Shown here: one piece after another, positions 2,948-18,630 of the stretch
Layout: each line of letters starts with the position of its first letter
Numbering within the stretch: position 1 is the first letter of the stretch
Source: an uncultured Colwellia sp.
GTDB lineage: Bacteria; Pseudomonadota; Gammaproteobacteria; Enterobacterales; Alteromonadaceae
Direction: 5' to 3'
Assembly (NCBI GenBank): GCA_913057925.1
Contig: CAJXPG010000006.1
Coordinates: 1 to 52,371 of the forward strand
Length of the DNA: 52,371 nucleotides
Notes under the pieces: generated by a model
Told to the model about the DNA's origin: nothing
The model's input: only the letters and a program-made list of their open reading frames with translations
Databases searched by the model: none
Translations under genes and position numbers: made by a program

Positions 2948-5854
2948 TTAAAATTTACCGGTAACACTTATACGATATCTACGACCACTGGCATTGTAAG
3001 CATTTAAACGTTCTGTTGAACCAATTTGCTCCCAGTATGGTAGCTGATCTAAGTAAGAGGTACTTACTTCATCGGTAATATTCACACCTTGTAATACTAA
3101 TTTAATACCTTTAGTGATATTAACCGATGCAGATAAATCAAATTGACCATAGGCATCACGATACTGTGCATTTTCTTGTGGACCAAATGCTTGCATCAAA
3201 TATTCTGAGCGATAGTTGTGCGATAACCTAACAAAGAAGCTATCCCCTTCGTAAGCGAGTGTTGTATTGAAGGTGTTTTTTGATAAACCTTCAAGTGGGA
3301 ACGTAGCCCCTTCAACCTCTTTACCTGTATCCGGATCAACAAGTTGTGCTTCACTTTCACTATAGGTGTAGTTAAATTTAACAGATAAGTTAGCTAAGTA
3401 ACTTGGTAAGAAATCTAAATCTTTATAGACGTTAACTTCTGCCCCTTTAACAATTGATGCCGGGCCATTCATCGGACGGCTAATTTCAAACAATAAACAA
3501 CCATTTTCATCGGCATCTTGATCAGGGTTACTTGCAGGAATACAGTTATCTGGTGTTGGGAATGGGTCAACTGTCGTTACTTTTTGAATATAATCTTGCA
3601 TGTCTTTATAAAAAAGACCTAACGAGATCATACCGGTTTTCCCCATGTAATGTTCGAAAGAAACATCAACTTGATCTGAGATAAACGGGTTTAAATATGG
3701 GTTACCACTTTTAACTTTTGGGTTACCCGCACCATAACTTACCGTTAATTTTGGTCCCACTTCACCAAACGTTGGTCTCGCCATTACACGCCCAACAGCA
3801 AAGCGCATTAAGCTGTCTTCAGTAAAAGAATAACGTAAATTTAATGAAGGTAAGGCTTCAGTGAAGTCGTGCTCAAAGCTTCTCGCTTCAACCACTTCTA
3901 CAGGGTTACCATCTTCATCAATAGTTTTAACTTTACTGGCACCATTACTCTCAGTATCAGTGCGCACAACCCTGACACCAAAGTTACCCACCAATGAATC
4001 ATCATCATTAGCAAAGTTCAGTTGTACATAACCAGCAAGGGTATTTTGATTAATGATTGTTGCTTTTAATGGGTCAGGCACTGAATTTTCAAGATTTTTT
4101 AATTCATCTCTTGTTAAGCCAAAATCGGCAAGACCACCATCAAGGTCTGGTACCGGCCAACTATAAACTGTATTTCCGGTAACATCGTCGAAGAAATTAT
4201 CTACAGGGAACTCAGCTTGCACGCCTTCGTTACCAATTCTAGAATCCCAGTTATAACCATCGACGCCTTCAGCATTTTTAGTAAAGCGAGGTTCATCCGC
4301 ATCTCTATCTTTTGTTCTATCGGTATATCTAACACCAAATTCAATTAAACTGACATAAGCAAAATCAAAATCATAATCAAAATCAAGCATAGCCGCTAAT
4401 TCATTATCTTTGGTTAAGTCAGTCGATGAGGTTACCGCACTGATTTTATATTCATCAGCATCAAACATCGATTGATTAATATCACCATGCTGGATCAGTG
4501 AAGGGATATCACCTAAGCGCGTATCAAAAGCATAAGGCACTTTAGTTTGAAGATCATATTTAAGACGAATAGCCTCCGGCGTTGTTAACTCTGTCATTGA
4601 ATAACCAACAGCACCTGAAACACGCATAGAATCAAAGTTTTGATTGATTTCAAGTCCAACAACGACGTTTTCTTTTTCTTTAGTTTTCCAATAGGCTGTG
4701 CTGTTGTTTGAACCTAAACGATTTGCCATAGGTACGCCATTTTCATCAGATAAATAGCCATTACCCGCCAGCACTGAATTATTACCATTAAGGATCATAG
4801 AGCTTGGCTCAACATACCCCATACCCGCAGAAAACACCTGAGATTCTTCACTTTCTTCAGAAGCTGAGTAAGTAGTATCAAAAATAACTTCCATACTATC
4901 TGTTGGTCTCATTTCAAAAGTAACTGCTGCACCAAGGCGTTCACGTTCTTTATTTTTTGTACCGTATTTTAAGCTTTTTGGTCTAGCTGCTCCGTATTGA
5001 CCTAAGTCAACACCATTAAGGTATCTATCGGGATGGCCCTCAGGTAGGGTATAAAGTTTTCCTTCAGAGCTATCATCAATGCCACCTTTGGCACCATTTT
5101 TCTCACCCGTTACCGAGGCTGGCATAAAATAACCATCAACCGCAAAAGCATCTTGGCGTAAATAACGTTTTTCATAGTTAATACCACCTGAAAAACCAAA
5201 GGTTCTATCAGCGAACTGATCAACGTAGTTGATTGAAAATTTAGGACTAGCTTTATCAACTAGCTCAGCGTATTCAGCTCCACCATTTACTACCAACTTC
5301 ATGCTTTTAGCATCAAGAGCTCTACGGGTTTTTAAGTTAATGCTACCACCTAAAGAGCCTTCTACCATAGATGCACTTGGTGTTTTAAATACTTCTACCT
5401 TTTCTAATAAACCAGAATCGAATGCTTCTAAATTAACGCCTTGATCATCACCACTTGAAGTCAGTGTTTTTCCGTTTACAGAAATTCGGTTTAACGCTGG
5501 CCCCATACCACGAATACTGACTTGAGAGCCTTCACCATCTTCTCGAGTGATTGAAACCCCGGTAATACGCTGTAAAGCCTCGGCAATGTTTGCATCAGGC
5601 ATTTTACCGATATCTTCAGCGATAATGGCATCTACAACACCAACCGCTTCCTTTTTCATATCACGAGATTTTTGTTCTGATGCACGAAAGCCAACAACTT
5701 CAATAACTTCAACAGATTTCTCTTTAGCTGCATCGTTTTTTTGTTGTTCTTCTTCAGCTGCGTGTACCGTAGGGTTCACCATTAATAATGATGCGGTACT
5801 CATTATCGCAACTTTACATGCTAATGATAGCTTTGCCATTTTGAACATTTTCAT
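2948..5854 (-). CDS. TonB-dependent outer-membrane receptor (carbohydrate type)
   Basis: A 968-residue receptor. It has a signal peptide (about residues 1-32, ending V-H-A), a TonB-box-like stretch (E-V-I-E-V-V-G-F, 49-56), and a plug domain with the segments D-A-N-I-A-E-A-L-Q-R-I-T-G-V and Q-V-S-I-R-G-M-G-P. A long beta-barrel follows and ends in the usual aromatic residue (R-I-S-V-T-G-K-F). The plug style is that of the Xanthomonas/Caulobacter carbohydrate-receptor group (TonB-Xanth-Caul type). It would import oligosaccharides across the outer membrane using TonB/ExbBD energy (not encoded here). Start ATG 5854 has GGAGA 8 bases upstream. Flanked by a sulfatase and a GH29 fucosidase on the same strand, it is probably the importer for the sulfated-fucan products. 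Confidence 0.95.
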   Translation of the reverse strand: MKMFKMAKLSLACKVAIMSTASLLMVNPTVHAAEEEQQKNDAAKEKSVEVIEVVGFRASEQKSRDMKKEAVGVVDAIIAEDIGKMPDANIAEALQRITGVSITREDGEGSQVSIRGMGPALNRISVNGKTLTSSGDDQGVNLEAFDSGLLEKVEVFKTPSASMVEGSLGGSINLKTRRALDAKSMKLVVNGGAEYAELVDKASPKFSINYVDQFADRTFGFSGGINYEKRYLRQDAFAVDGYFMPASVTGEKNGAKGGIDDSSEGKLYTLPEGHPDRYLNGVDLGQYGAARPKSLKYGTKNKERERLGAAVTFEMRPTDSMEVIFDTTYSASEESEESQVFSAGMGYVEPSSMILNGNNSVLAGNGYLSDENGVPMANRLGSNNSTAYWKTKEKENVVVGLEINQNFDSMRVSGAVGYSMTELTTPEAIRLKYDLQTKVPYAFDTRLGDIPSLIQHGDINQSMFDADEYKISAVTSSTDLTKDNELAAMLDFDYDFDFAYVSLIEFGVRYTDRTKDRDADEPRFTKNAEGVDGYNWDSRIGNEGVQAEFPVDNFFDDVTGNTVYSWPVPDLDGGLADFGLTRDELKNLENSVPDPLKATIINQNTLAGYVQLNFANDDDSLVGNFGVRVVRTDTESNGASKVKTIDEDGNPVEVVEARSFEHDFTEALPSLNLRYSFTEDSLMRFAVGRVMARPTFGEVGPKLTVSYGAGNPKVKSGNPYLNPFISDQVDVSFEHYMGKTGMISLGLFYKDMQDYIQKVTTVDPFPTPDNCIPASNPDQDADENGCLLFEISRPMNGPASIVKGAEVNVYKDLDFLPSYLANLSVKFNYTYSESEAQLVDPDTGKEVEGATFPLEGLSKNTFNTTLAYEGDSFFVRLSHNYRSEYLMQAFGPQENAQYRDAYGQFDLSASVNITKGIKLVLQGVNITDEVSTSYLDQLPYWEQIGSTERLNAYNASGRRYRISVTGKF

Positions 5855-6302: not shown

Positions 6303-7889
6303 TTATAAATTGGCAGCATCAGGCTCTGTTACGATTAAATCACCAGCAACATCAATTTTGAAGGCATAAGCAAATTCACCAAACTTTTCTTTTGGAAATT
6401 GTAAATGCAAGCCCTTGTTATCGCGAGTCCAGGTAATACTTTCATCAGTACCTAATAAAGACACCTTACTAATCTTGCCTTTAGTGGAAATAGCATAATC
6501 ACTGTTTAAGGTATTAATGGTTAGTTTGCCATCTTTTGGCCAATCTAACGCAATGGCATACAGTGCATTGTCTTTTTGGGTAAAGCGGATATCTTTAGCA
6601 CCCAGTTTACGATGGTCCCACTTTATCTTCTCTTTACCCTTAATTTTTACTTGTTTGGTTACTTTAGTTGGCCCTTCGCCATAAACACTAAAGCGTCTTG
6701 TACCATAAATGGATTCGCCATTTACCTTCATCCAACGGCCAATGCCTTTCATGATGGCAATTTCTTCATCGGCAATCGAGCCATCACCTTTTGGCGTAAG
6801 GGATAAAAACATAATGCCGCCACGACTAGTAAAATCAATAATACTGTCGACTTGATAATCAGGTCCGTCACGGTATGTTTTATTGTTGACATAACTCCAT
6901 GGGTAACCAATGGCTCTATCTGCTAACCAATAACCTTTTTGATGTTCAGGCATATCACGGCCATTCTCATAACTTTTTAACCCAACATGATCTGGAAAGT
7001 TAAAATTGGCGGCTAACTTGTTGGCGACAACAACATCTTGTTTACGTTCAGCTGATTCGTTGTAGAAATACGAAATCGCTTTGGTTACATTATCTTCGGT
7101 CGGGTGACCACCTTTCATTGAAGTCGTTAATCCATCAAACCAAATAAAGTCTGGCTTGTAGTTATCAACAACTTCGGTAATTTTTCCATACCAGTCGGCA
7201 TTAAATTGCTCGGTAGAATCACGGCCATATTTCCAGAAAAAATCACCTAACTCAGGATCAGATAGCTCCCAGTTTTTATTAATCTTTGATGCGTCTTTAC
7301 CTTTATTGGGTAATTCACCATAGGCATAGTTAAAGGTTCTACCGTGATGGAATGTGGCTGCTAATTTCATATCTGGATACTTAGCAACTTCAGCAGCGAT
7401 TTCGCCATAAATATCTTTTTTAGGGCCCATGTTTTTAGCATTCCATCGGCTATATTTTGAGTCCCATAATAGAAAACCATCGTGATGAACTAAGGCGATA
7501 CCACCAAATTTCGCGCCAGCTTCATTCATTAAGCCAACCCATTCACTCGCATTAAACTTTGGTGCGGTGAACTTTGGAATAAAGTCTGCGTAACCAAACT
7601 CTTCTAAAGAGCCATATTTTTTAGTGTGATACTCATATACGCCTTTTTTATTTTTTGGCGAGTACATCTGACGAAGGTAATCAGGACCACCATGTGCAGG
7701 TACAGAATAAATCCCCCAATGGGTATATACACCAAACTTGGCATCTATTAACCATTCAGGAATGTCTTTCTTGGCAATTGAATCCCAGTCGGCTTGATAC
7801 TTATGCTGTTCTACAGCTTGCGCTGATAAACTAAAAGCACCTGCCGCAAGGGCTAGACTTAAATAAGAGCTTAAACGTGATTTTTTCAT
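6303..7889 (-). CDS. Alpha-L-fucosidase, GH29, secreted/periplasmic
   Basis: A 528-residue retaining exo-glycosidase predicted to release terminal alpha-L-fucose (members can also accept alpha-L-galactosides). Signal peptide 1-25 (ends L-S-A-Q-A). GH29 landmarks: K-F-G-V-Y-T-H-W-G (51-59), V-H-H-D-G-F (134-139), F-H-H-G-R-T (180-185), and F-I-W-F-D-G, where Asp252 is the expected nucleophile. A C-terminal beta-sandwich is implied by length. The acid/base residue is not conserved across GH29 and cannot be assigned by eye. Upstream of the gene is a TTTATTTACAA-like site; a strong terminator follows. The second GH29 enzyme at 16647-18347 is a lipoprotein with the same core but limited identity, so these look like paralogs with different locations. 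Confidence 0.95.
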   Translation of the reverse strand: MKKSRLSSYLSLALAAGAFSLSAQAVEQHKYQADWDSIAKKDIPEWLIDAKFGVYTHWGIYSVPAHGGPDYLRQMYSPKNKKGVYEYHTKKYGSLEEFGYADFIPKFTAPKFNASEWVGLMNEAGAKFGGIALVHHDGFLLWDSKYSRWNAKNMGPKKDIYGEIAAEVAKYPDMKLAATFHHGRTFNYAYGELPNKGKDASKINKNWELSDPELGDFFWKYGRDSTEQFNADWYGKITEVVDNYKPDFIWFDGLTTSMKGGHPTEDNVTKAISYFYNESAERKQDVVVANKLAANFNFPDHVGLKSYENGRDMPEHQKGYWLADRAIGYPWSYVNNKTYRDGPDYQVDSIIDFTSRGGIMFLSLTPKGDGSIADEEIAIMKGIGRWMKVNGESIYGTRRFSVYGEGPTKVTKQVKIKGKEKIKWDHRKLGAKDIRFTQKDNALYAIALDWPKDGKLTINTLNSDYAISTKGKISKVSLLGTDESITWTRDNKGLHLQFPKEKFGEFAYAFKIDVAGDLIVTEPDAANL

Positions 7890-8513: not shown

Positions 8514-8987
8514 TTATAAATCGATCGCTCTAATCAAAAAATAGGTTGGCCAAATCTCTCTCACTTGACTTTCCCATAGCAAGTCTATTTTTCTATTTGC
8601 TTGTTGTAAAAGCCAAATTTTAGCCCATTTTTGTACAGTTTTACCTGACTTACTTAGCTTTAATGGCAGAAATATACGTTGATAATGATCTCCTTCATAT
8701 TCAACAATGGCGTGACTTCTCGCTCTCTTATGCAAGCTGTCTAAAGTTTCACTAATGATCTCGACCTTCGACAAAGGTAAAATACCTTGCCTTTTTAAAC
8801 AGGCTAAAACCTCAGCTTTATTTACACATACCTGCATGTAGGTATCTAAATGTGGTCTGTAAACCATTCCTGTTAGCCCATAACTCGCAGTGAATTCTCT
8901 GTCGGCCATTTCTTTTAACGGAATAAGTTCATTATTGACATCAGTTAATTCACTGAGCACATGAAGTTTGTCATTCAATTTAGACAA
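8514..8987 (-). CDS. Hypothetical protein, last gene of the opine/CDP cluster
   Basis: A 157-residue soluble-looking protein with no signal peptide or membrane segment; I do not recognise the family. It has a tryptophan-rich C-terminal part (K-W-A-K-I-W-L-L and D-L-L-W-E-S-Q-V-R-E-I-W-P) and a central stretch with Y-E-G-D-H-Y-Q-R-I-F-L. A small alpha+beta fold is possible but not shown. The start is TTG at 8987 behind GGGAG (10-base spacing); no in-frame ATG occurs until about residue 27. It begins 47 bases after the 2OG oxygenase stop on the same strand, so it is probably co-transcribed with it. Function may relate to the product of the cluster, but this is inference from position only. Confidence 0.7.
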   Translation of the reverse strand: MSKLNDKLHVLSELTDVNNELIPLKEMADREFTASYGLTGMVYRPHLDTYMQVCVNKAEVLACLKRQGILPLSKVEIISETLDSLHKRARSHAIVEYEGDHYQRIFLPLKLSKSGKTVQKWAKIWLLQQANRKIDLLWESQVREIWPTYFLIRAIDL

Positions 8988-9034
8988 TGACTAATTTCTC
9001 CCAAAAATAAATATCAATGCAGCATGGTTTAACA

Positions 9035-9697
9035 TTAACTTGGTGGGGCAATTTTATTTGCAATACTGTTGTTTAATCGAAACCAGCCTGCGATAGCGTA
9101 GCGGTCACTTTTCGCAGGTAATACTTCATGTGGAAATTCTTCACTTAAAAACACGACTATAGTGCCCAAACTAGGCGTTACTGTAGCTAAACTATTATCA
9201 GCAACAAAAGCAGTTGATAATTGATTATCATAAATCACTAATTCTCCACCATCAGCAACAGACCAATTTTTATTAAGATAAACCACAACAGATAGCACAC
9301 GATTATCTTCACCTTTAAAAGCATCTTTGTGCTTCTTATAAAAATCGCCTTTAGTGTAATGAGAAAAGTGGCTTTCAAAAGAAAATAAACCAAGAAATAA
9401 ACGCCTGTTCAAAAAAACTTGCAGTGACATTGTCCATTTTAACCACTCACAAGTCGCTTTACTGTTACTTATTATCCAAGATATTTCATCTGTGCGAATA
9501 AGTTCATTAATTGCATGGTCTTCGGCTCTGCCAATCCCTGCTCGTTGAAAATCATCCTTTGGCAGTACAGCGATATGTTTTAATAACAAGGTGGTTAATT
9601 CTTTGGGTAAAGCATAATGGCTAATACTGTAGCCCTTATCAACTATGTCTTTTGTGATTGATTCAAACAGTGATGCGTTGTTATTTGAAGACGCCAT
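9035..9697 (-). CDS. 2OG-Fe(II) oxygenase, prolyl-4-hydroxylase-like
   Basis: A 220-residue enzyme of the non-haem iron/2-oxoglutarate dioxygenase superfamily. Counting from ATG 9697, the iron ligands are His123 and Asp125 (K-K-H-K-D-A-F) and His190 (F-P-H-E-V-L-P), and Arg199 (S-D-R-Y-A-I-A-G-W-F) is the expected 2-oxoglutarate binder. The layout resembles the 2OG-FeII_Oxy_3 (PF13640) / SM-20 group: Y-T-K-G-D-F-Y, then L-S-V-V-V-Y-L-N, then G-G-E-L. A TTG five codons upstream (9712) is a possible alternative start; ATG 9697 is preferred because it lies 1 base after the stop of the dehydrogenase gene (TGA-T-ATG), implying translational coupling. Likely role: hydroxylation of an amino-acid-like small molecule or protein side chain made with the upstream enzymes. 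Confidence 0.88.
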   Translation of the reverse strand: MASSNNNASLFESITKDIVDKGYSISHYALPKELTTLLLKHIAVLPKDDFQRAGIGRAEDHAINELIRTDEISWIISNSKATCEWLKWTMSLQVFLNRRLFLGLFSFESHFSHYTKGDFYKKHKDAFKGEDNRVLSVVVYLNKNWSVADGGELVIYDNQLSTAFVADNSLATVTPSLGTIVVFLSEEFPHEVLPAKSDRYAIAGWFRLNNSIANKIAPPS

Positions 9698-9698
9698 A

Positions 9699-10880
9699 TC
9701 AGGTAAATTCAACAGGGTTCTGGTATACAGTGATACTTTCTTCTTCTACAAAACTCAATAACTCTTCTTTTGATAATTCACTTAATCCTAGCGAAGTGAG
9801 TGTTCTTCCTTCTTTAAAAAAATCTCGTACTAAAAGTCCACCGCACATCTCGATTAAACGATTACATTCAGGGGTGTTAATACCTAACTTTTCACCTAGC
9901 GAAGATAATAAAACCAGCCCCATAGGGACATCTTCCGTTACGTATCGGTTGTCAAAACTATATGGCCCTGGAGGAGATGAAACTTTATAGCTTTCAAAAA
10001 CCTCTTTAGGGTTTTGTGTTAAATCTTCTTCATTCCTAAATAGGCAGGCTTCTAAGTAGGGCTTTGGTTCACATCCAAGTGCAGATAACACTGCCATTTT
10101 TTCTGCATCAAGTTTTTCTATCATTAGCCATGCCATATCCGTTGAAAGTGCATCTCTGTACATATATGGCACTTCGTTAGGATGGTGTTTTGCACAATAG
10201 GCAAGCATTGGATACATGACATATAAACCAACAGTATGAACAATAATATTAGGATTATGGAGTGCAGATTCGAAAATATGTTTACGAACACTTTTTCTTT
10301 CAATGTTATAGGCAGGAAATAGGTTGGCGGCAATTGCCATGCCACGAGCTGTTTTTGAAGCAGGGAAAAAAGAAAGGGCATTTCTAGCGTTTTTAAATAA
10401 TACTTTCACTGTGCCAGGTTCAACCACCCTTGCATCATTAGGTGTTGATTCTCCTTCTGCAAAGATTGGGTTGTTATCGCAAAACTTACTGTAATAAATG
10501 CTTCCTGCATATCCAGGAATTAAGATGACTAGCTGATCATCCTGAAAATACTTTGCGATTCTTTCAGCTAAAGCTGGGTGATATGTTGTTTGAATAAAAA
10601 CCATAACAACATCTGCCCCTTCAATAGCTTCTTTAGGGTCTCTAGTAATCATTTCTAGTGGTTGAAACGTTTTTTCGACATTGTCGCTACTGTCGGTAAA
10701 ATGACCTGTTTTTGTATTGTCGATACAATAGATGCCTTTGTTTTCGACCATTCTTTCAAAGTGTTCATCATGAGTAATCTGATTTGAAGTTTTCAATAAT
10801 CTAACTTTATGTCCTGCCTCAGCAGCCATAAACGCACAAGCAGAACCAGCATTGCCGGCTCCTATGATGGTGATTCTCAT
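9699..10880 (-). CDS. Octopine/nopaline (opine) dehydrogenase family enzyme
   Basis: A 393-residue NAD(P)-dependent oxidoreductase. The N-terminal Rossmann motif is I-I-G-A-G-N-A-G-S-A (residues 5-14). The C-terminal half contains the A-L-H-N-P-N-I-I-V-H-T segment characteristic of the octopine dehydrogenase domain (PF02317), with the expected catalytic histidine. Family enzymes reductively join an alpha-keto acid to the amino group of an amino acid or amine to give an N-(1-carboxyalkyl) product. There is no signal peptide, so it acts in the cytoplasm. GAGAG lies 6 bases ahead of the ATG, and a hairpin at 10909-10930 precedes it. Keto-acid and amine partners cannot be read from sequence. Its neighbours (cytidylyltransferase, CDP-alcohol transferase) suggest the amine may be phosphorylated or lipid-bound. 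Confidence 0.88.
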   Translation of the reverse strand: MRITIIGAGNAGSACAFMAAEAGHKVRLLKTSNQITHDEHFERMVENKGIYCIDNTKTGHFTDSSDNVEKTFQPLEMITRDPKEAIEGADVVMVFIQTTYHPALAERIAKYFQDDQLVILIPGYAGSIYYSKFCDNNPIFAEGESTPNDARVVEPGTVKVLFKNARNALSFFPASKTARGMAIAANLFPAYNIERKSVRKHIFESALHNPNIIVHTVGLYVMYPMLAYCAKHHPNEVPYMYRDALSTDMAWLMIEKLDAEKMAVLSALGCEPKPYLEACLFRNEEDLTQNPKEVFESYKVSSPPGPYSFDNRYVTEDVPMGLVLLSSLGEKLGINTPECNRLIEMCGGLLVRDFFKEGRTLTSLGLSELSKEELLSFVEEESITVYQNPVEFT

Positions 10881-10908
10881 TTTTCTCTCAATAATTAGGG
10901 AAAAGAAT

Positions 10909-10930
10909 CAAGGGGAAAACCTTCCCCTTG
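10909..10930 (-). terminator. Hairpin in leader of the opine dehydrogenase gene
   Basis: Perfect 9-bp stem CAAGGGGAA (10909-10917) with TTCCCCTTG (10922-10930), 4-base loop, then ATTCTTTTCCC on the minus strand. It lies 224 bases beyond the cytidylyltransferase stop and 28 bases before the dehydrogenase ATG. It could be a weak terminator or attenuator between the two. Confidence 0.5.
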
Positions 10931-11153
10931 CATGTTCAAACGATGGATATTTATAAATGTGGAGATTTCGATATGTGAAAATTCAAAATTGTAGAAATTA
11001 AGGCTAAAAGAAAATTGGTTGTTTAAGAGCTAACGAAACCATAATAAATAGGTGGTATAAATCTCATAGAACAACGTCTAAGTTCTGGTAAACGTCTGCG
11101 TTAACAACCTTAAACTATTGTTGGTACTAGCAACCCAATTCATACATATTTTA

Positions 11154-11594
11154 TTACTTATTCTTGGACCACCAATTAAATTGACGCGGAGCACTATACT
11201 TTTTGACGCTATTAAGCTTCTTTATAATGGCTGTTGAGTCTGTTTCAGTACTTCTTGGAACGTATCGCATGATGCCCATTTTATGAGGTAACTCATACAT
11301 ATGTTGCATGTTATCGCCTGCAACATGAATATCAATTCCATTTAACTCGTAAAAACTAGCGTCTGTATTTCGGGTAAGTGGTGCAACGATGACCTCATCA
11401 ACACACTTGATATTTCTTATAATCTCGCATCGTTGTTCACAAGAAATAACGGGTGTACGTTTATAAGATTTAACGTCTTCATCGGAATGCACGCCAACAA
11501 TCAGATAATCACCAAATTGTTTAGCTTTTTTAAGAACTGATACATGGCCCACATGAAATAAATCAAATACACCACTGGTATATACTTTTTTCAT
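11154..11594 (-). CDS. Small cytidylyltransferase (phosphoethanolamine/glycerol-3-P type)
   Basis: A 146-residue nucleotidyltransferase of the CTP_transf_like family (PF01467). It has the signature G-V-F-D-L-F-H-V-G-H (8-17; catalytic His14 and His17) and a C-terminal R-S-T-E-T-D-S-T-A-I-I (114-124), corresponding to the R-T-x-G-I-S-T-T motif of glycerol-3-phosphate and phosphoethanolamine cytidylyltransferases. It would activate a phospho-alcohol with CTP to a CDP-alcohol, releasing pyrophosphate, in the cytoplasm. The length matches single-domain bacterial TagD-like enzymes. AGGAG lies 7 bases ahead of the ATG, immediately downstream of a large hairpin (11612-11647). The nearby CDP-alcohol phosphotransferase gene could use its product. 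The true phospho-alcohol is unknown; phosphoethanolamine is a guess. Confidence 0.88.
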   Translation of the reverse strand: MKKVYTSGVFDLFHVGHVSVLKKAKQFGDYLIVGVHSDEDVKSYKRTPVISCEQRCEIIRNIKCVDEVIVAPLTRNTDASFYELNGIDIHVAGDNMQHMYELPHKMGIMRYVPRSTETDSTAIIKKLNSVKKYSAPRQFNWWSKNK

Positions 11595-11611
11595 TTTATT
11601 GCTCCTATCAC

Positions 11612-11647
11612 GGAGCGAATAGCGAAAAGATTTTCGTTACTCGCTCC
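11612..11647 (-). promoter_or_regulatory. Long hairpin in leader of the cytidylyltransferase gene
   Basis: The arms GGAGCGAGTAACGAAAA and TTTTCGCTATTCGCTCC (minus strand, 11647-11612) form a 17-bp stem with two mismatched or wobble pairs and a 2-base tip. It ends 17 bases before the start codon, next to the AGGAG sequence. There is no U tract, so it is unlikely to be a simple terminator and could affect translation or mRNA stability. Confidence 0.5.
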
Positions 11648-11880
11648 ATCAAATCTTTTCGTCACAAACCTGCTTTGTTTTGCTTTTTAGTTGATAGCAA
11701 ATGTTTTCTTTTAAAAAAACATATCAGCCAATAAATCGTATTTACTCGCTAAAACAGTTGCCTATTATGTAAGGCTGTATCTTATGACTATGAACATTGG
11801 CATGGAGTAGGTTGTTTAGAGCCAACCTACATTCGTCATTTTTCTAGAGTGGAGATGTTGTGTAAGTAACGTTAATAAAT

Positions 11881-12546
11881 TCAAACGTTCGAAAACAACA
11901 ACCAGCTATAAACAAACGTTATAGCTAGCGTGTATAAAGCGAGAGCATAGTACCAAACACCACCATTGAGCTTTGGTGTTCTTATTGGAGCCACATTTAA
12001 CGCTGACAAGACTATAAGGGTGATATAAAGGACGATAGTGAAAGCAGAAGTTGTCATAAAGCTTTCTAATAAAAATACAAAAACAAGAATGATGACATTG
12101 TTGTCATAGGCAAGACCTTGGTAAGTAGATTTCCCCGCCAAACCGTATACGTTAAAATAACTTAAACGCAGAACGCCTGCGGCAACAATGAGAAAAGCAC
12201 CAGGGAATAAAAGAGGATTATAATTGCCATAACTTAATAATATGACAGCGGGACAAATACCGAAGCTGACAATATCTATGAGAGAGTCTACTTGCCCGCC
12301 AATTTGTCCTTGAATTGCTGTTCTACCTTTGATTTTTCTTGCTATTTTTCCATCATTCCAATCAAAAAAGACAGCCCAAACCAACCCAATCATTGCGGCA
12401 GGATAATTTCCGGTTAAGGCAAAAAATAACGCTAATAATGCTGAAAATAGACCGACTAACGAACAAATATTAGGTAAATCACTGGCGAGTGACAATATCG
12501 AAGGGGGATCAATAGACGGATTGCTTTGTGTTTTTTCTGATCGCAT
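11881..12546 (-). CDS. CDP-alcohol phosphotransferase, phosphatidylserine-synthase-like
   Basis: A 221-residue inner-membrane enzyme with about six hydrophobic segments. It carries the full CDP-alcohol phosphotransferase signature: Asp62-x2-Asp65-Gly66-x2-Ala69-Arg70, then 12 residues, Gly83-x3-Asp87-x3-Asp91. The four aspartates bind metal and the CDP substrate. The following V-S-F-G-I-C-P-A is typical of phosphatidylserine-synthase-like members, while the 12-residue spacing with K-I-K-G-R-T-A-I-Q is longer than usual. It either transfers a phosphatidyl group from CDP-diacylglycerol to an alcohol, or a phospho-alcohol from a CDP-alcohol to a lipid. The neighbouring cytidylyltransferase favours the second reaction and the signature the first. 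ATG at 12546; no obvious ribosome-binding site. Confidence 0.88.
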   Translation of the reverse strand: MRSEKTQSNPSIDPPSILSLASDLPNICSLVGLFSALLALFFALTGNYPAAMIGLVWAVFFDWNDGKIARKIKGRTAIQGQIGGQVDSLIDIVSFGICPAVILLSYGNYNPLLFPGAFLIVAAGVLRLSYFNVYGLAGKSTYQGLAYDNNVIILVFVFLLESFMTTSAFTIVLYITLIVLSALNVAPIRTPKLNGGVWYYALALYTLAITFVYSWLLFSNV

Positions 12547-14659: not shown

Positions 14660-15514
14660 TTAAACTTTTCCCGTCCACACTTTATACGCAATATCATTTT
14701 TTCTATTATTCTTGACTGTATACATGAGTTCGTCAGCAATTTTCATCGCTTCTTTTATATCCATGGGTAACGTTTCAAACGTGACAATGCCAACACTAAA
14801 ACTTACATTCCAGCCTTTTTTTCGCATTTTATCTTCTAGTTCTTCACTGGCTTTAGCAAAAGCACTTTTAACTTCTGCTTGACTAGTTTCTGGAAATATA
14901 ATGGCAAATTCATCACCACCCAACCTCGCGATGATGTCTGTTTTTCGTAAGCTAGAGGTTAAACATCTTGCCACTGAAATAAGTAGTTCATCACCTTTCA
15001 AGTGACCGATGGAGTCATTAATACTTTTGAAATTGTCTACATCAATATAGGACAGTGAAAAAACATGCTTATACCTAATTGAGCGGAGAATCTCGTTAGC
15101 TAAATCAAGATAAAAACTTCTGGAATTTGAAAGGCCGGTAAGGTTATCTGTACTAGCCATAACGAACTCTGCATTATGGGCACTTCTAAAGGTAATGATT
15201 AATACTGCGGCTAAAGTATAGGTAATTAGTCGTATAAAAATATAAAAAATAGACTCTAAGGAAAAGGCGAATGAGTCTGTTAACATCGCATTGATGAACA
15301 AGGTTATTGAAACAACAAAAGCGGCAAATAGAAGCGGTTTTGCTCGTCGAGCATACCAACTAAGGATCACTAAAGGTATTAGAAATAGTGGTTCAAATAA
15401 TTCAAAATTATTAAAGTAAAATCCGGTAAATGCGATAAAAAACGCGATAAAATAACAAATAAAAATGACGGATGAAGTAGAATAACCATCTAAAATGCTC
15501 AACATCGTCTTCAT
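14660..15514 (-). CDS. Membrane-bound diguanylate cyclase (GGDEF)
   Basis: A 284-residue enzyme that makes cyclic di-GMP from two GTP. It has four or five hydrophobic segments in the first about 110 residues, then a GGDEF domain. The active-site motif G-G-D-E-F is at 199-203, and R-K-T-D (190-193), exactly five residues upstream, is the RxxD inhibitory I-site, so product feedback inhibition is expected. D-N-L-T-G-L is at 123-128. The membrane part shows no recognisable sensor family. The ATG has no own ribosome-binding site; instead a short ORF with a strong AGGAG ends on it through an ATGA overlap (see 15511-15534). The small secreted protein at 15586-16002 lies just upstream on the same strand and may be co-transcribed. 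Confidence 0.92.
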   Translation of the reverse strand: MKTMLSILDGYSTSSVIFICYFIAFFIAFTGFYFNNFELFEPLFLIPLVILSWYARRAKPLLFAAFVVSITLFINAMLTDSFAFSLESIFYIFIRLITYTLAAVLIITFRSAHNAEFVMASTDNLTGLSNSRSFYLDLANEILRSIRYKHVFSLSYIDVDNFKSINDSIGHLKGDELLISVARCLTSSLRKTDIIARLGGDEFAIIFPETSQAEVKSAFAKASEELEDKMRKKGWNVSFSVGIVTFETLPMDIKEAMKIADELMYTVKNNRKNDIAYKVWTGKV

Positions 15515-16646: not shown

Positions 16647-18347
16647 CTATACTTTAGTTTTGTAGATTGGCCAATTGCCTTTTCGTCCAATGCCATCATC
16701 AAAGGTCGGTCTGACACTTTGGTCAAGTTCACCTTTAACGGTGATTTTGAAGCTATAAGCGATCTCTCCAGGTAACTGCTTAGGGAACTTAACAATTAAA
16801 CCATCAGAGTTTTGCTGCCAGTCAATTTTAGCATCACTGCCTAATAAGCTGACGGATGCAATACCTTTACCTGACTTTTCAACATTGCCCAAAGCGAGTG
16901 TAGGAACCTTTATTTCACCTGATTCTGGCTCTCCCATGACAATCGCGTATAAGTCATTGCCATTTTTAGTAAATCGAACTACATCACCTTTTGCTTTATC
17001 TAAGATGGTGTAATCCCAGTTGGTTTTCGGCTCACCATTCATGCGAAATGCATCAACACGCAAGACATCAGCATCCATTCCCTCGCCTACAGACTTCCAA
17101 GGTCGAGTATTATAGATAGCATCGCCATTAATACGCATCCAACGACCAATGCCCGCCATGATTTCTTTTTCACGTTCAGGGATTGAACCGTCCCCTTTAG
17201 GAGTTAGAGAAAGTAAGAAACTTCCACCACGGGCAACAATATCAACAAGGCTGCGAATATGATAATCATGACTATGTTGATACTCTTTATCTTTCACCCA
17301 TGTCCATGGGTAACCAATAGATCGATCAATGTTCCAATCACCTCGAACATCAACTTCCATATCACGACCATTTTCATAGGTACGATAACCAAAACCCATA
17401 GGGAAATTCCAACGCATAGACGCCGGTAACTTATTAAATAAATAAGTTTCGTCGGTGTAATCATTACCATTATTTAAAAAGTCTGAGAAAGTTTTTAATA
17501 ACCGTTCATCATTAACAATACCATTGGCTTTGCCCTTCGCTAAACCATCAAACCATAATAAATCCGGCTGATATTTCTCGATCACTTCATCAATTTTGTT
17601 ATGCCACTCATTGCTAAACTCTTCAACACTAACCGTTTCAGGGTTACGGTAAATATAATCGTACTTTGGATCGAAGATATCTAACTTTGCCTTTTCTTCT
17701 TCGGTATATTTATCAGCATCTTTAAAGCCCAAACCATAAGTACGAGCATGGTGAAAAGTCGCGACTAATTTCATATCACTTTTACGAACAGATTTGGTGA
17801 TTTCACCAAAAATATCCTTTTTAGGTCCTGTGTCCATACTATCAAACTTTGTATATTCACTATCCCATAAACAGTATCCATCATGATGTACCACGTGTAT
17901 CCCTGCATATTTTGCCCCGGCATCTTCCATCACGGCAACCCATTCATCAGCATTAAATTTCGGTGCTGTGAACATAGGAAGAAAATCTTTATAACCAAAC
18001 TCTTCTATTGGTCCGTAAGTTTTCTCATGGTGAGCACGTACACCGCGATCATTATCTTTACGGTACATAAAATCACCATAAACATTCGTCAGATGCGCAG
18101 GGACTGAATATAAGCCCCAATGGGTATAAACGCCAAACTTAGCGTCTTTTAACCACTCAGGTACTGGCGCCGTACTTAACGACTCCCAAGTAGGGTCATA
18201 TTTCTTTTTACTTTGCTCAACAAGTGATTTGTCACTTTTTTGCGCAACATCACCTTTTAGTACTACCTCACTACAGGCAGCTAAACTTAAGGCCGTCATA
18301 AGCGCTAAACTTATAGGCGCTAACTTTATCTTTACATTTATTTTCAA
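16647..18347 (-). CDS. Alpha-L-fucosidase, GH29, outer-membrane lipoprotein
   Basis: A GH29 enzyme of 566 residues from the preferred TTG start at 18347, which follows GGTGGA and gives a classic lipoprotein signal: K-I-K-L-A-P-I-S-L-A-L, then lipobox L-A-A-C with Cys25. Ser at +2 predicts outer-membrane retention. The frame is open 33 codons further up, but that stretch is an unlikely extra hydrophobic segment. Core motifs: K-F-G-V-Y-T-H-W-G, V-H-H-D-G-Y, F-H-H-A-R-T and L-L-W-F-D-G with Asp267 as expected nucleophile. It would release alpha-L-fucose (or L-galactose) from sulfated glycans at the cell surface or periplasmic face. It shares a divergent promoter with the beta-helix enzyme at 18736, a region with three copies of the TTTATTTAC motif. 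Confidence 0.93.
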   Translation of the reverse strand: MKINVKIKLAPISLALMTALSLAACSEVVLKGDVAQKSDKSLVEQSKKKYDPTWESLSTAPVPEWLKDAKFGVYTHWGLYSVPAHLTNVYGDFMYRKDNDRGVRAHHEKTYGPIEEFGYKDFLPMFTAPKFNADEWVAVMEDAGAKYAGIHVVHHDGYCLWDSEYTKFDSMDTGPKKDIFGEITKSVRKSDMKLVATFHHARTYGLGFKDADKYTEEEKAKLDIFDPKYDYIYRNPETVSVEEFSNEWHNKIDEVIEKYQPDLLWFDGLAKGKANGIVNDERLLKTFSDFLNNGNDYTDETYLFNKLPASMRWNFPMGFGYRTYENGRDMEVDVRGDWNIDRSIGYPWTWVKDKEYQHSHDYHIRSLVDIVARGGSFLLSLTPKGDGSIPEREKEIMAGIGRWMRINGDAIYNTRPWKSVGEGMDADVLRVDAFRMNGEPKTNWDYTILDKAKGDVVRFTKNGNDLYAIVMGEPESGEIKVPTLALGNVEKSGKGIASVSLLGSDAKIDWQQNSDGLIVKFPKQLPGEIAYSFKITVKGELDQSVRPTFDDGIGRKGNWPIYKTKV

Positions 18348-18630
18348 AACACATCCACCAATATGATTATTATAATTACTATACATAAACATTAATGTGA
18401 CGGTTATTAAAGATAAAGTAAATAAATAAACGAATAAACATGACAAAAATAACTAGAAACAAAGTTACCACCTAGTAAAAGTATCACACAAACAACAGCA
18501 TACGTTATTACTTACAAACCAAACCTTGATAACAATGCCATAGACAAAGTACTGAAGGTATAGCAAAACCACTAAAGTCTGATAGTGCCTTTGTGACTAA
18601 CAGCTAACTACTACAACAAACAGCTTGACC

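Follow-up and report, generated by a model that had tools for sequence, protein, structure and literature searches.

Are five adjacent genes of an uncultured Colwellia sp. the parts of a single pathway, or do they represent separate units that came to lie side by side? The question arises from positions 8514-12546 of contig CAJXPG010000006.1 (assembly GCA_913057925.1), of which positions 1 to 52,371 were analysed (hereafter the window). The minus strand carries here genes for a CDP-alcohol phosphotransferase (PT), a cytidylyltransferase (CT), an octopine/nopaline-type dehydrogenase (ODH), a 2-oxoglutarate-Fe(II) (2OG-Fe(II)) oxygenase (OX) and a protein of 157 amino acids (C5). Open reading frame (ORF) calls place the five genes side by side as described in the initial annotation of the region, and its family assignments are likewise borne out by Pfam matches above cut-off for PT, CT, ODH and OX, with the fifth gene lacking a curated match.

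The same annotation had read the five genes as one pathway. One part of that proposal stands, as PT and CT are kept together as a unit for CDP-alcohol chemistry; the other part, according to which ODH and OX feed this unit, finds no support in the comparisons below. Judging from sequence comparison, we consider it fairly likely that the locus is composite and made up of three separable modules, in which module A (PT and CT) is a two-gene unit for CTP-dependent head-group transfer, module B consists of ODH, and module C of OX with or without C5. CT would join CTP and a small phospho-alcohol X to form CDP-X, as its family suggests, and PT would transfer phospho-X, with diacylglycerol or a comparable lipid hydroxyl as the most likely acceptor. 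Modules B and C would work separately from module A, and the adjacency of the modules may have arisen as blocks moved horizontally from one marine family to another. Genomes and loci of relatives are cited below by handles beginning with G and L, respectively.

The phosphotransferase and its cytidylyltransferase-type partner

PT (11881-12546, minus strand, 221 amino acids) is an integral-membrane protein that matches the Pfam family CDP-OH_P_transf (PF01066; 48.9 bits versus a cut-off of 22, E 1.2e-12). CT (11154-11594, minus strand, 146 amino acids) is a small HxGH-type enzyme matching CTP_transf_like (PF01467; 69 bits versus 21, E 5.8e-19), with the motif HVGH in the window and HVGH or HIGH in 38 of 39 relatives. 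Within the genus, a close PT occurs in 8 of 39 genomes, at 78-81% identity besides the window's own, and CT is adjacent in all eight. These genomes appear to include Colwellia marinimaniae MTCD1 (G019), Colwellia sp. TT2012 (G002) and C. piezophila (G023); four more are metagenome-assembled genomes (MAGs) labelled DT or ALOHA_DT. The pair is likewise adjacent in 14 of the 15 close named loci, the fifteenth (L134) ending inside PT.

In a wider scan of named genomes with a PT alignment the best 80 of 431 confirmed loci were kept, and one of them (L158, no PT ORF recovered) was dropped. A cytidylyltransferase-type partner lies near PT in 75 of the resulting 79 loci: within three genes of PT, 38 loci have an HxGH-type CT, 37 a cluster of NTP-transferase and pyridoxal-phosphate (PLP) enzymes, none has both and four have neither (three short contigs or contig ends and one Planctomycetota MAG). 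The clusters of the NTP-transferase version comprise a MobA/LicC-like NTP-transferase and/or a CobD/HisC-like PLP enzyme (the latter seen in the representatives scanned, L115 and L125), and two of them a PhnW-like 2-aminoethylphosphonate aminotransferase (L123, L214). Two changes account for the CT label on the PT tree (86 rows, with PT rows shorter than 190 amino acids, namely L134, left out); well supported branches enforce two, and none of 500 shuffles gave a number as low. Because the partner stays cytidylyltransferase-type whatever its fold, PT very likely uses CDP-X made by its partner, as in Kennedy-type head-group transfer. This link between PT and CDP-X is probably what selection keeps, as the partner type switched between two unrelated folds on at least two occasions.

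The canonical signature of CDP-alcohol phosphotransferases, DxxDGxxARx8GxxxDxxxD, has a spacer of x8. PT departs from it with the motif DxxDGxxAR-x12-GxxxDxxxD; the x12 spacer recurs in 78 of 79 relatives (x11 in the remaining one), and the alignment shows a 4-residue insertion relative to the phosphatidylserine synthase 7b1k. These departures bear on the alternative that PT is an ordinary phosphatidylserine synthase beside an unrelated cytidylyltransferase. PT does score to the models for pssA (TIGR00473) and archaetidylserine synthase (NF038087), and its AlphaFold model (pLDDT 87.3, pTM 0.84) has its best PDB matches in the phosphatidylserine synthases 7pow and 7b1k (TM 0.64-0.67). However, every curated cut-off is missed (73.7 versus 107 and 92.8 versus 240, respectively), and the spacer, the insertion and the near-constant cytidylyltransferase-type partner likewise argue against an ordinary synthase, which we judge quite improbable.

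The next fold matches of PT are PIP synthase (TM 0.57) and IPCT-DIPPS (4mnd, TM 0.49). The latter raises the alternative that module A makes a soluble phosphodiester solute similar to di-myo-inositol phosphate, perhaps a piezolyte, from CDP-X and a phospho-polyol with subsequent action of a phosphatase. The IPCT-DIPPS model gives NTP-transferase partners scores that stay below its cut-off, 12 of 79 loci have a metallophosphoesterase less than 2.2 kb away from PT, and many carriers are marine, several of them deep-sea. Against a solute, PT is nearer to phosphatidylserine synthase than to DIPPS (TM 0.66 versus 0.49), and the neighbours in the representatives scanned are CobD/PhnW-like and not inositol-1-phosphate synthases. 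The window CT belongs to PF01467 and not to the NTP-transferase families, and thus does not fit the IPCT-DIPPS route. We regard this alternative as unlikely.

Some further genes were observed around PT. A calcineurin-like metallophosphoesterase is found 0.45-2.1 kb from PT, in differing orientations, in 12 of the 79 loci, which are of Colwellia and Desulfobulbales type (L107, L108, L110, L112, L134; L126, L140, L141, L148, L150, L154, L157). A second CDP-alcohol phosphotransferase lies between the PhnW-like aminotransferase and PT in L214 (7784-8545, inositol-phosphate-synthase-like) and L215 (8473-9249, by eye). Two of the 79 loci, L128 and L145 of the NTP-transferase group, have ODH-family genes of about 20% identity to ODH near PT, which we take as chance or a weak association.

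The head group

The nature of X can be approached through the NTP-transferase version of the unit. The PDB matches of its PLP partner are 6oux, a 'threonine phosphate decarboxylase-like enzyme' (129 bits), the histidinol-phosphate aminotransferase 3ftb (124 bits) and CobD 1lc5 (84 bits). We take 6oux to be a phosphoserine decarboxylase of norcobamide synthesis (a reference title names SMUL_1544). In the consulted parts of PMC12409886, Campylobacter Cj1436 converts serine phosphate to ethanolamine phosphate by decarboxylation, and the likeness drawn here concerns the reaction only. The PhnW-like replacements suggest 2-aminoethylphosphonate or something similar. The PDB relatives of CT are ethanolamine-phosphate cytidylyltransferase (121 bits, two stretches summed) and glycerol-3-phosphate cytidylyltransferase (93 bits). 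Phosphoethanolamine had been an initial guess, and the PLP enzymes of amino-alcohol-phosphate and aminoethylphosphonate families in the representatives of this version come near it. As a lead and not a result, X is most probably ethanolamine phosphate or a close amino-alcohol phosphate, a weak inference from the NTP-transferase operon version; glycerol-3-phosphate or phosphoserine may be alternatives.

A phosphonate reading of the NTP-transferase units was rejected. The motif of phosphoenolpyruvate (PEP) mutase is EDKx5NS, and it occurs in none of the ORFs of at least 150 amino acids in the 88 loci scanned, many of which are short.

Several observations weigh against our interpretation of module A. 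The nearest solved fold of PT, phosphatidylserine synthase, is a user of CDP-diacylglycerol as donor, and the Kennedy-type cholinephosphotransferase 8ul9 (TM 0.48) is no nearer to PT than IPCT-DIPPS (0.49); 8ul9 and human CEPT1 (TM 0.37) both match at E above 1. CT reaches no curated equivalog cut-off: it scores 68 versus 165.4 bits to the glycerol-3-phosphate cytidylyltransferase model TIGR01518. The partner families were named from the representatives L115, L119, L123, L125, L128, L148 and L214, and those of the other loci by homology. Regarding a source of phosphoethanolamine, matches to Choline_kinase (PF01633) were found in 10 of 12 genomes, nine over the Pfam cut-off and all partial, and those of G000 and G143 adjoin a PnuC-like gene (by eye), a neighbour that presumably suggests a thiamine rather than an ethanolamine kinase.

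The hairpin preceding the cytidylyltransferase gene

The spacer between PT and CT contains a covarying hairpin (11595-11654, minus strand) just 5' of the Shine-Dalgarno sequence of CT. The 60 bases 5' of CT align in 17 readable group-1 loci; L134, which ends inside PT, was left out of this set, and L110, identical to L108 in that stretch, was left out of analysis A7. In the 16 distinct rows 94.4% of the cells are paired, compared with 88.4% in shuffles (sd 1.2, none of 500 as high) and 24-51% in slid versions of the pairing. The nine two-sided changes were likewise equalled in none of 500 shuffles; how many pairs carry such changes (87 of 500) and how many further pair types occur (101 of 500) is unexceptional against shuffles. 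The fold of the window hairpin has a z of -4.3 to -4.4, and z falls below -2 in 6 of the 17 loci, the window included (mononucleotide shuffles). The longest uninterrupted stem exceeds 95% of shuffles in 13 of 17 loci, the exceptions being L196, L103, L107 and the window, whose stem of 6 was matched in 222 of 300 shuffles.

A covariance model of the hairpin finds one site in each of nine PT-CT genomes and none in three genomes without a close PT. All nine genomes either served as training rows or match one exactly, so that only the uniqueness of the site is new (150 first-look candidates were scored per genome). The model gave no match beyond the window, L196 and L205 on 26 group-2, group-3 or divergent loci, and no Rfam family scores above gathering for the window hairpin stretch. 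Because the hairpin abuts the Shine-Dalgarno sequence, it likely controls CT translation or the processing of the mRNA.

Conservation of the five-gene block

The complete order PT-CT-ODH-OX-C5 was found in one other genome, G143, a complete genome of another family, at identities to the window of 84% (PT), 83% (CT), 89% (ODH), 72% (OX) and 76% (C5). DNA identity is 77-84% in the genes of the block and 53% and 63% in its two long spacers, and OX of G143 carries a frameshift about 70% of the way along the gene. The presence of the same genes in the same order in G143 implies that the five-gene adjacency is more than chance; the view that the set is nowhere conserved was dropped, as G143 holds it whole. 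The search of gene neighbourhoods nevertheless yielded the full set in only two species among the genomes searched, though these belong to two families, and the initial annotation had itself named so narrow a distribution as evidence against its pathway.

In that pathway ODH would make an N-(1-carboxyalkyl) amino-alcohol phosphate, CT would activate it, PT would place it on a lipid and OX would hydroxylate it. The gene order common to the window and G143 speaks for it, as does the junction TGA-T-ATG by which ODH and OX are joined in the window and G006. PT and ODH moreover co-occur more often than expected, both in the genus (4 of 37 genomes, expected 1.5, P 0.027) and in the order sample (2 of 394, expected 0.14, P 0.007), with shared habitat and ancestry uncontrolled in both comparisons. 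The full-order block in a second family and the joint presence of ODH and OX in three genomes may mean a functional link and, like this co-occurrence, run counter to a composite locus.

The distribution of ODH and PT-CT, however, argues against a common pathway. ODH adjoins PT-CT in 2 of 17 ODH genomes (the window and G143) and is found in none of 14 close named loci that carry the pair; in 11 of these the sequence continues for more than 9 kb past it. Where other genus members hold both, PT and ODH lie apart, about 24 kb from each other in G034 and on different contigs in G002 and G019. In the family of G143, PT occurs in 4 of 152 genomes and a close PT together with ODH in G143 only; the nearest tree relatives of the window PT (L102, L205) have PT-CT without ODH beside it. 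The frameshift of OX in G143 and the leader that ODH has of its own likewise speak against ODH and OX feeding PT-CT. We consider the single pathway highly improbable, and give hardly any credence to its fuller version, a deep-sea lipid with an opine-type (N-carboxyalkyl), hydroxylated head group made by all five genes, with ODH switched by its array leader and CT by its hairpin.

The opine dehydrogenase and its repeat leader

ODH (9699-10880, minus strand, 393 amino acids), module B of the composite locus, is a member of the octopine/nopaline-dehydrogenase family (Octopine_DH, PF02317; 105.4 bits versus 30, E 3.5e-30) with the N-terminal GxGxxG present as GAGNAG; its best PDB match is the N-(1-D-carboxylethyl)-L-norvaline dehydrogenase 1bg6 (E 1.9e-27). 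At identities of at least 73% it occurs in 8 of 61 relatives, 11 of 394 order genomes and 7 of 37 genus genomes, and in 17 distinct genomes overall. In fourteen of the 17 none of the other four genes adjoins ODH, and three (the window, G143, G006) have OX next to it; the contig begins too near ODH to view its upstream side in G006, G019, G030 and G312. The ODH tree mixes families, one clade (100/98) spanning three of them, and ODH therefore appears to move horizontally. A tandem paralogue of 26% identity lies beside ODH in G034 and G002 (L019 7913-9049, L020 9586-10761). The ODH of G214 (L199 6009-7151) and G030 (L024 87-1108) is split into two frames, and some copies accordingly look broken.

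The leader of the window ODH (10881-11010, minus strand) consists of a degenerate repeat of period 8/16 followed by an inverted repeat (10909-10930). Its period signal lies above 200 of 200 shuffles, but no array was recovered by Tandem Repeats Finder. Arrays precede 10 of 13 readable ODH copies (L018, L019, L020, L021, L196, L197, L198, L200, L201, L204), with units of 7, 8 or 16 bp that are mostly variants of ACATYTC and come from several families. They comprise 2.6 to 24.5 copies, one array being clipped by the 420-base limit and some being short and low-scoring. The leader of L202 has a 46-bp array without period signal. L199, with its full upstream region and no array, was left out of the leader set together with L022, L023 and L203 (contig edge) and the G030 copy; analysis A5 also left out L202. 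A three-unit pattern has 18 matches in 4 of 12 whole genomes, all of them 72-343 bp before ODH, compared with none for a control pattern. The repeat leader looks like a variable promoter or leader, and one may guess at phase variation by the array.

A terminator-like score is also obtained for the inverted repeat. Its interpretation as a mere CT terminator was rejected, since relatives with no CT at this location have it too, in the corresponding position ahead of ODH. Considered as an RNA structure, its pair counts are barely above those of shuffles, and sliding the pairing by one column improves it. The folding of ODH leaders (mean z -0.99, 12 leaders) resembles that of 10 control upstream regions (-0.97), and Rfam gave no match above gathering in 10 ODH loci.

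The oxygenase, the fifth gene and the flanking region

The frame of OX in the ORF list opens at an in-frame TTG at 9712; the ATG start gives 9035-9697 (minus strand, 220 amino acids). It matches 2OG-FeII_Oxy_3 (PF13640; 81.8 bits versus 27, E 7.3e-23), and the residues HKD, later HEV, and R fit the motif of 2OG-Fe(II) oxygenases, HxD...H...R. OX is present in 18 of 39 genus genomes. Its start was correctly placed one base past the ODH stop by the initial annotation (TGA-T-ATG); the gap is about 11 bases in G143. The close packing noted for ODH, OX and C5 was confirmed and is limited to these three genes, the gaps being wider upstream (286 bp between PT and CT, 273 bp between CT and ODH).

C5 (8514-8987, minus strand, 157 amino acids, TTG start) matches nothing in Pfam or NCBIfam above a curated cut-off, and its predicted model (pLDDT 54) is too poor for a fold search. 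It occurs in 21 of 61 relatives and is the gene immediately after OX in ten genomes (the window, G006 as a fragment, G143, G019, G032, G002, G020, G029, G011 and G013).

A protein with 72% identity to window 14660-15514 (GGDEF-like by eye) stands next to PT-CT in G172 too (L205 10655-11512), which suggests that the shared block around PT-CT may be larger. The region is flanked by alpha-L-fucosidase-like genes at 6303-7889 (Pfam) and 16647-18446 (homology to the first), and a gene that resembles a TonB receptor by eye lies at 2948-5854; these possibly form a fucose-polysaccharide locus.

Relation to known systems and significance

Module A resembles the Kennedy pathway, in which a cytidylyltransferase acts with a choline/ethanolamine or ethanolamine phosphotransferase (CEPT/EPT), in pairing an HxGH-superfamily cytidylyltransferase with a CDP-alcohol phosphotransferase; it differs as a small bacterial two-gene unit with a PssA-like rather than CEPT-like PT and no confident kinase. 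In the consulted parts of PMC6697681, PntC phosphonate-tailoring units bring together a cytidylyltransferase of NTP-transferase type and a PLP transaminase. Those PT loci that carry the NTP-transferase version follow the same logic, but differ in having no PEP mutase motif (88 loci) and a CobD/HisC-like PLP enzyme (representatives), and the CT of the window has another fold.

As far as the consulted parts of Peoples et al. (2020) extend, a 'CDP-alcohol phosphatidyltransferase' of Colwellia MT41 (748798-749364, 567 bp) is listed there as piezophile-biased (PMC7542103). The PT of C. marinimaniae MTCD1 has likewise 567 bp from the TTG of codon 30, and a chemotaxis-like ORF (by eye) lies near it and near the MT41 gene. 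Judging by length and neighbour, PT is very probably the phosphotransferase listed there. The cytidylyltransferase partner is unnamed in that source, whose main text has no word starting with 'cytidyl'. In the open-licence PMC literature we found no description of an opine dehydrogenase together with a cytidylyltransferase and a CDP-alcohol phosphatidyltransferase, of a cytidylyltransferase with a CDP-alcohol enzyme in Colwellia, or of a tandem-repeat promoter of an opine dehydrogenase, and nothing that looked relevant on opine dehydrogenases in Shewanella (including the consulted parts of PMC9426571).

The 1bg6 opine dehydrogenase, the best PDB relative of ODH, differs from it with regard to the repeat-array leader, and the substrate chemistry of ODH is predicted only. 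PssA-type and archaetidylserine synthases provide the nearest curated models and the nearest solved fold for PT, which differs from them by its scores below cut-off, the 4-residue insertion in the signature and the near-constant cytidylyltransferase-type partner. As far as the literature was searched, module A looks like a variant of CDP-alcohol head-group transfer not described before.

With module A, a membrane-lipid gene reported as biased to pressure-loving Colwellia would gain a partner and a reaction, in which CTP and phospho-X yield CDP-X, followed by transfer. The swaps of the activating enzyme between unrelated folds, at least two in number, constitute strong assay-free evidence on what PT consumes. 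Proteobacteria make phosphatidylethanolamine via phosphatidylserine; if X is ethanolamine phosphate, the pair would represent a Kennedy-type branch in Proteobacteria.

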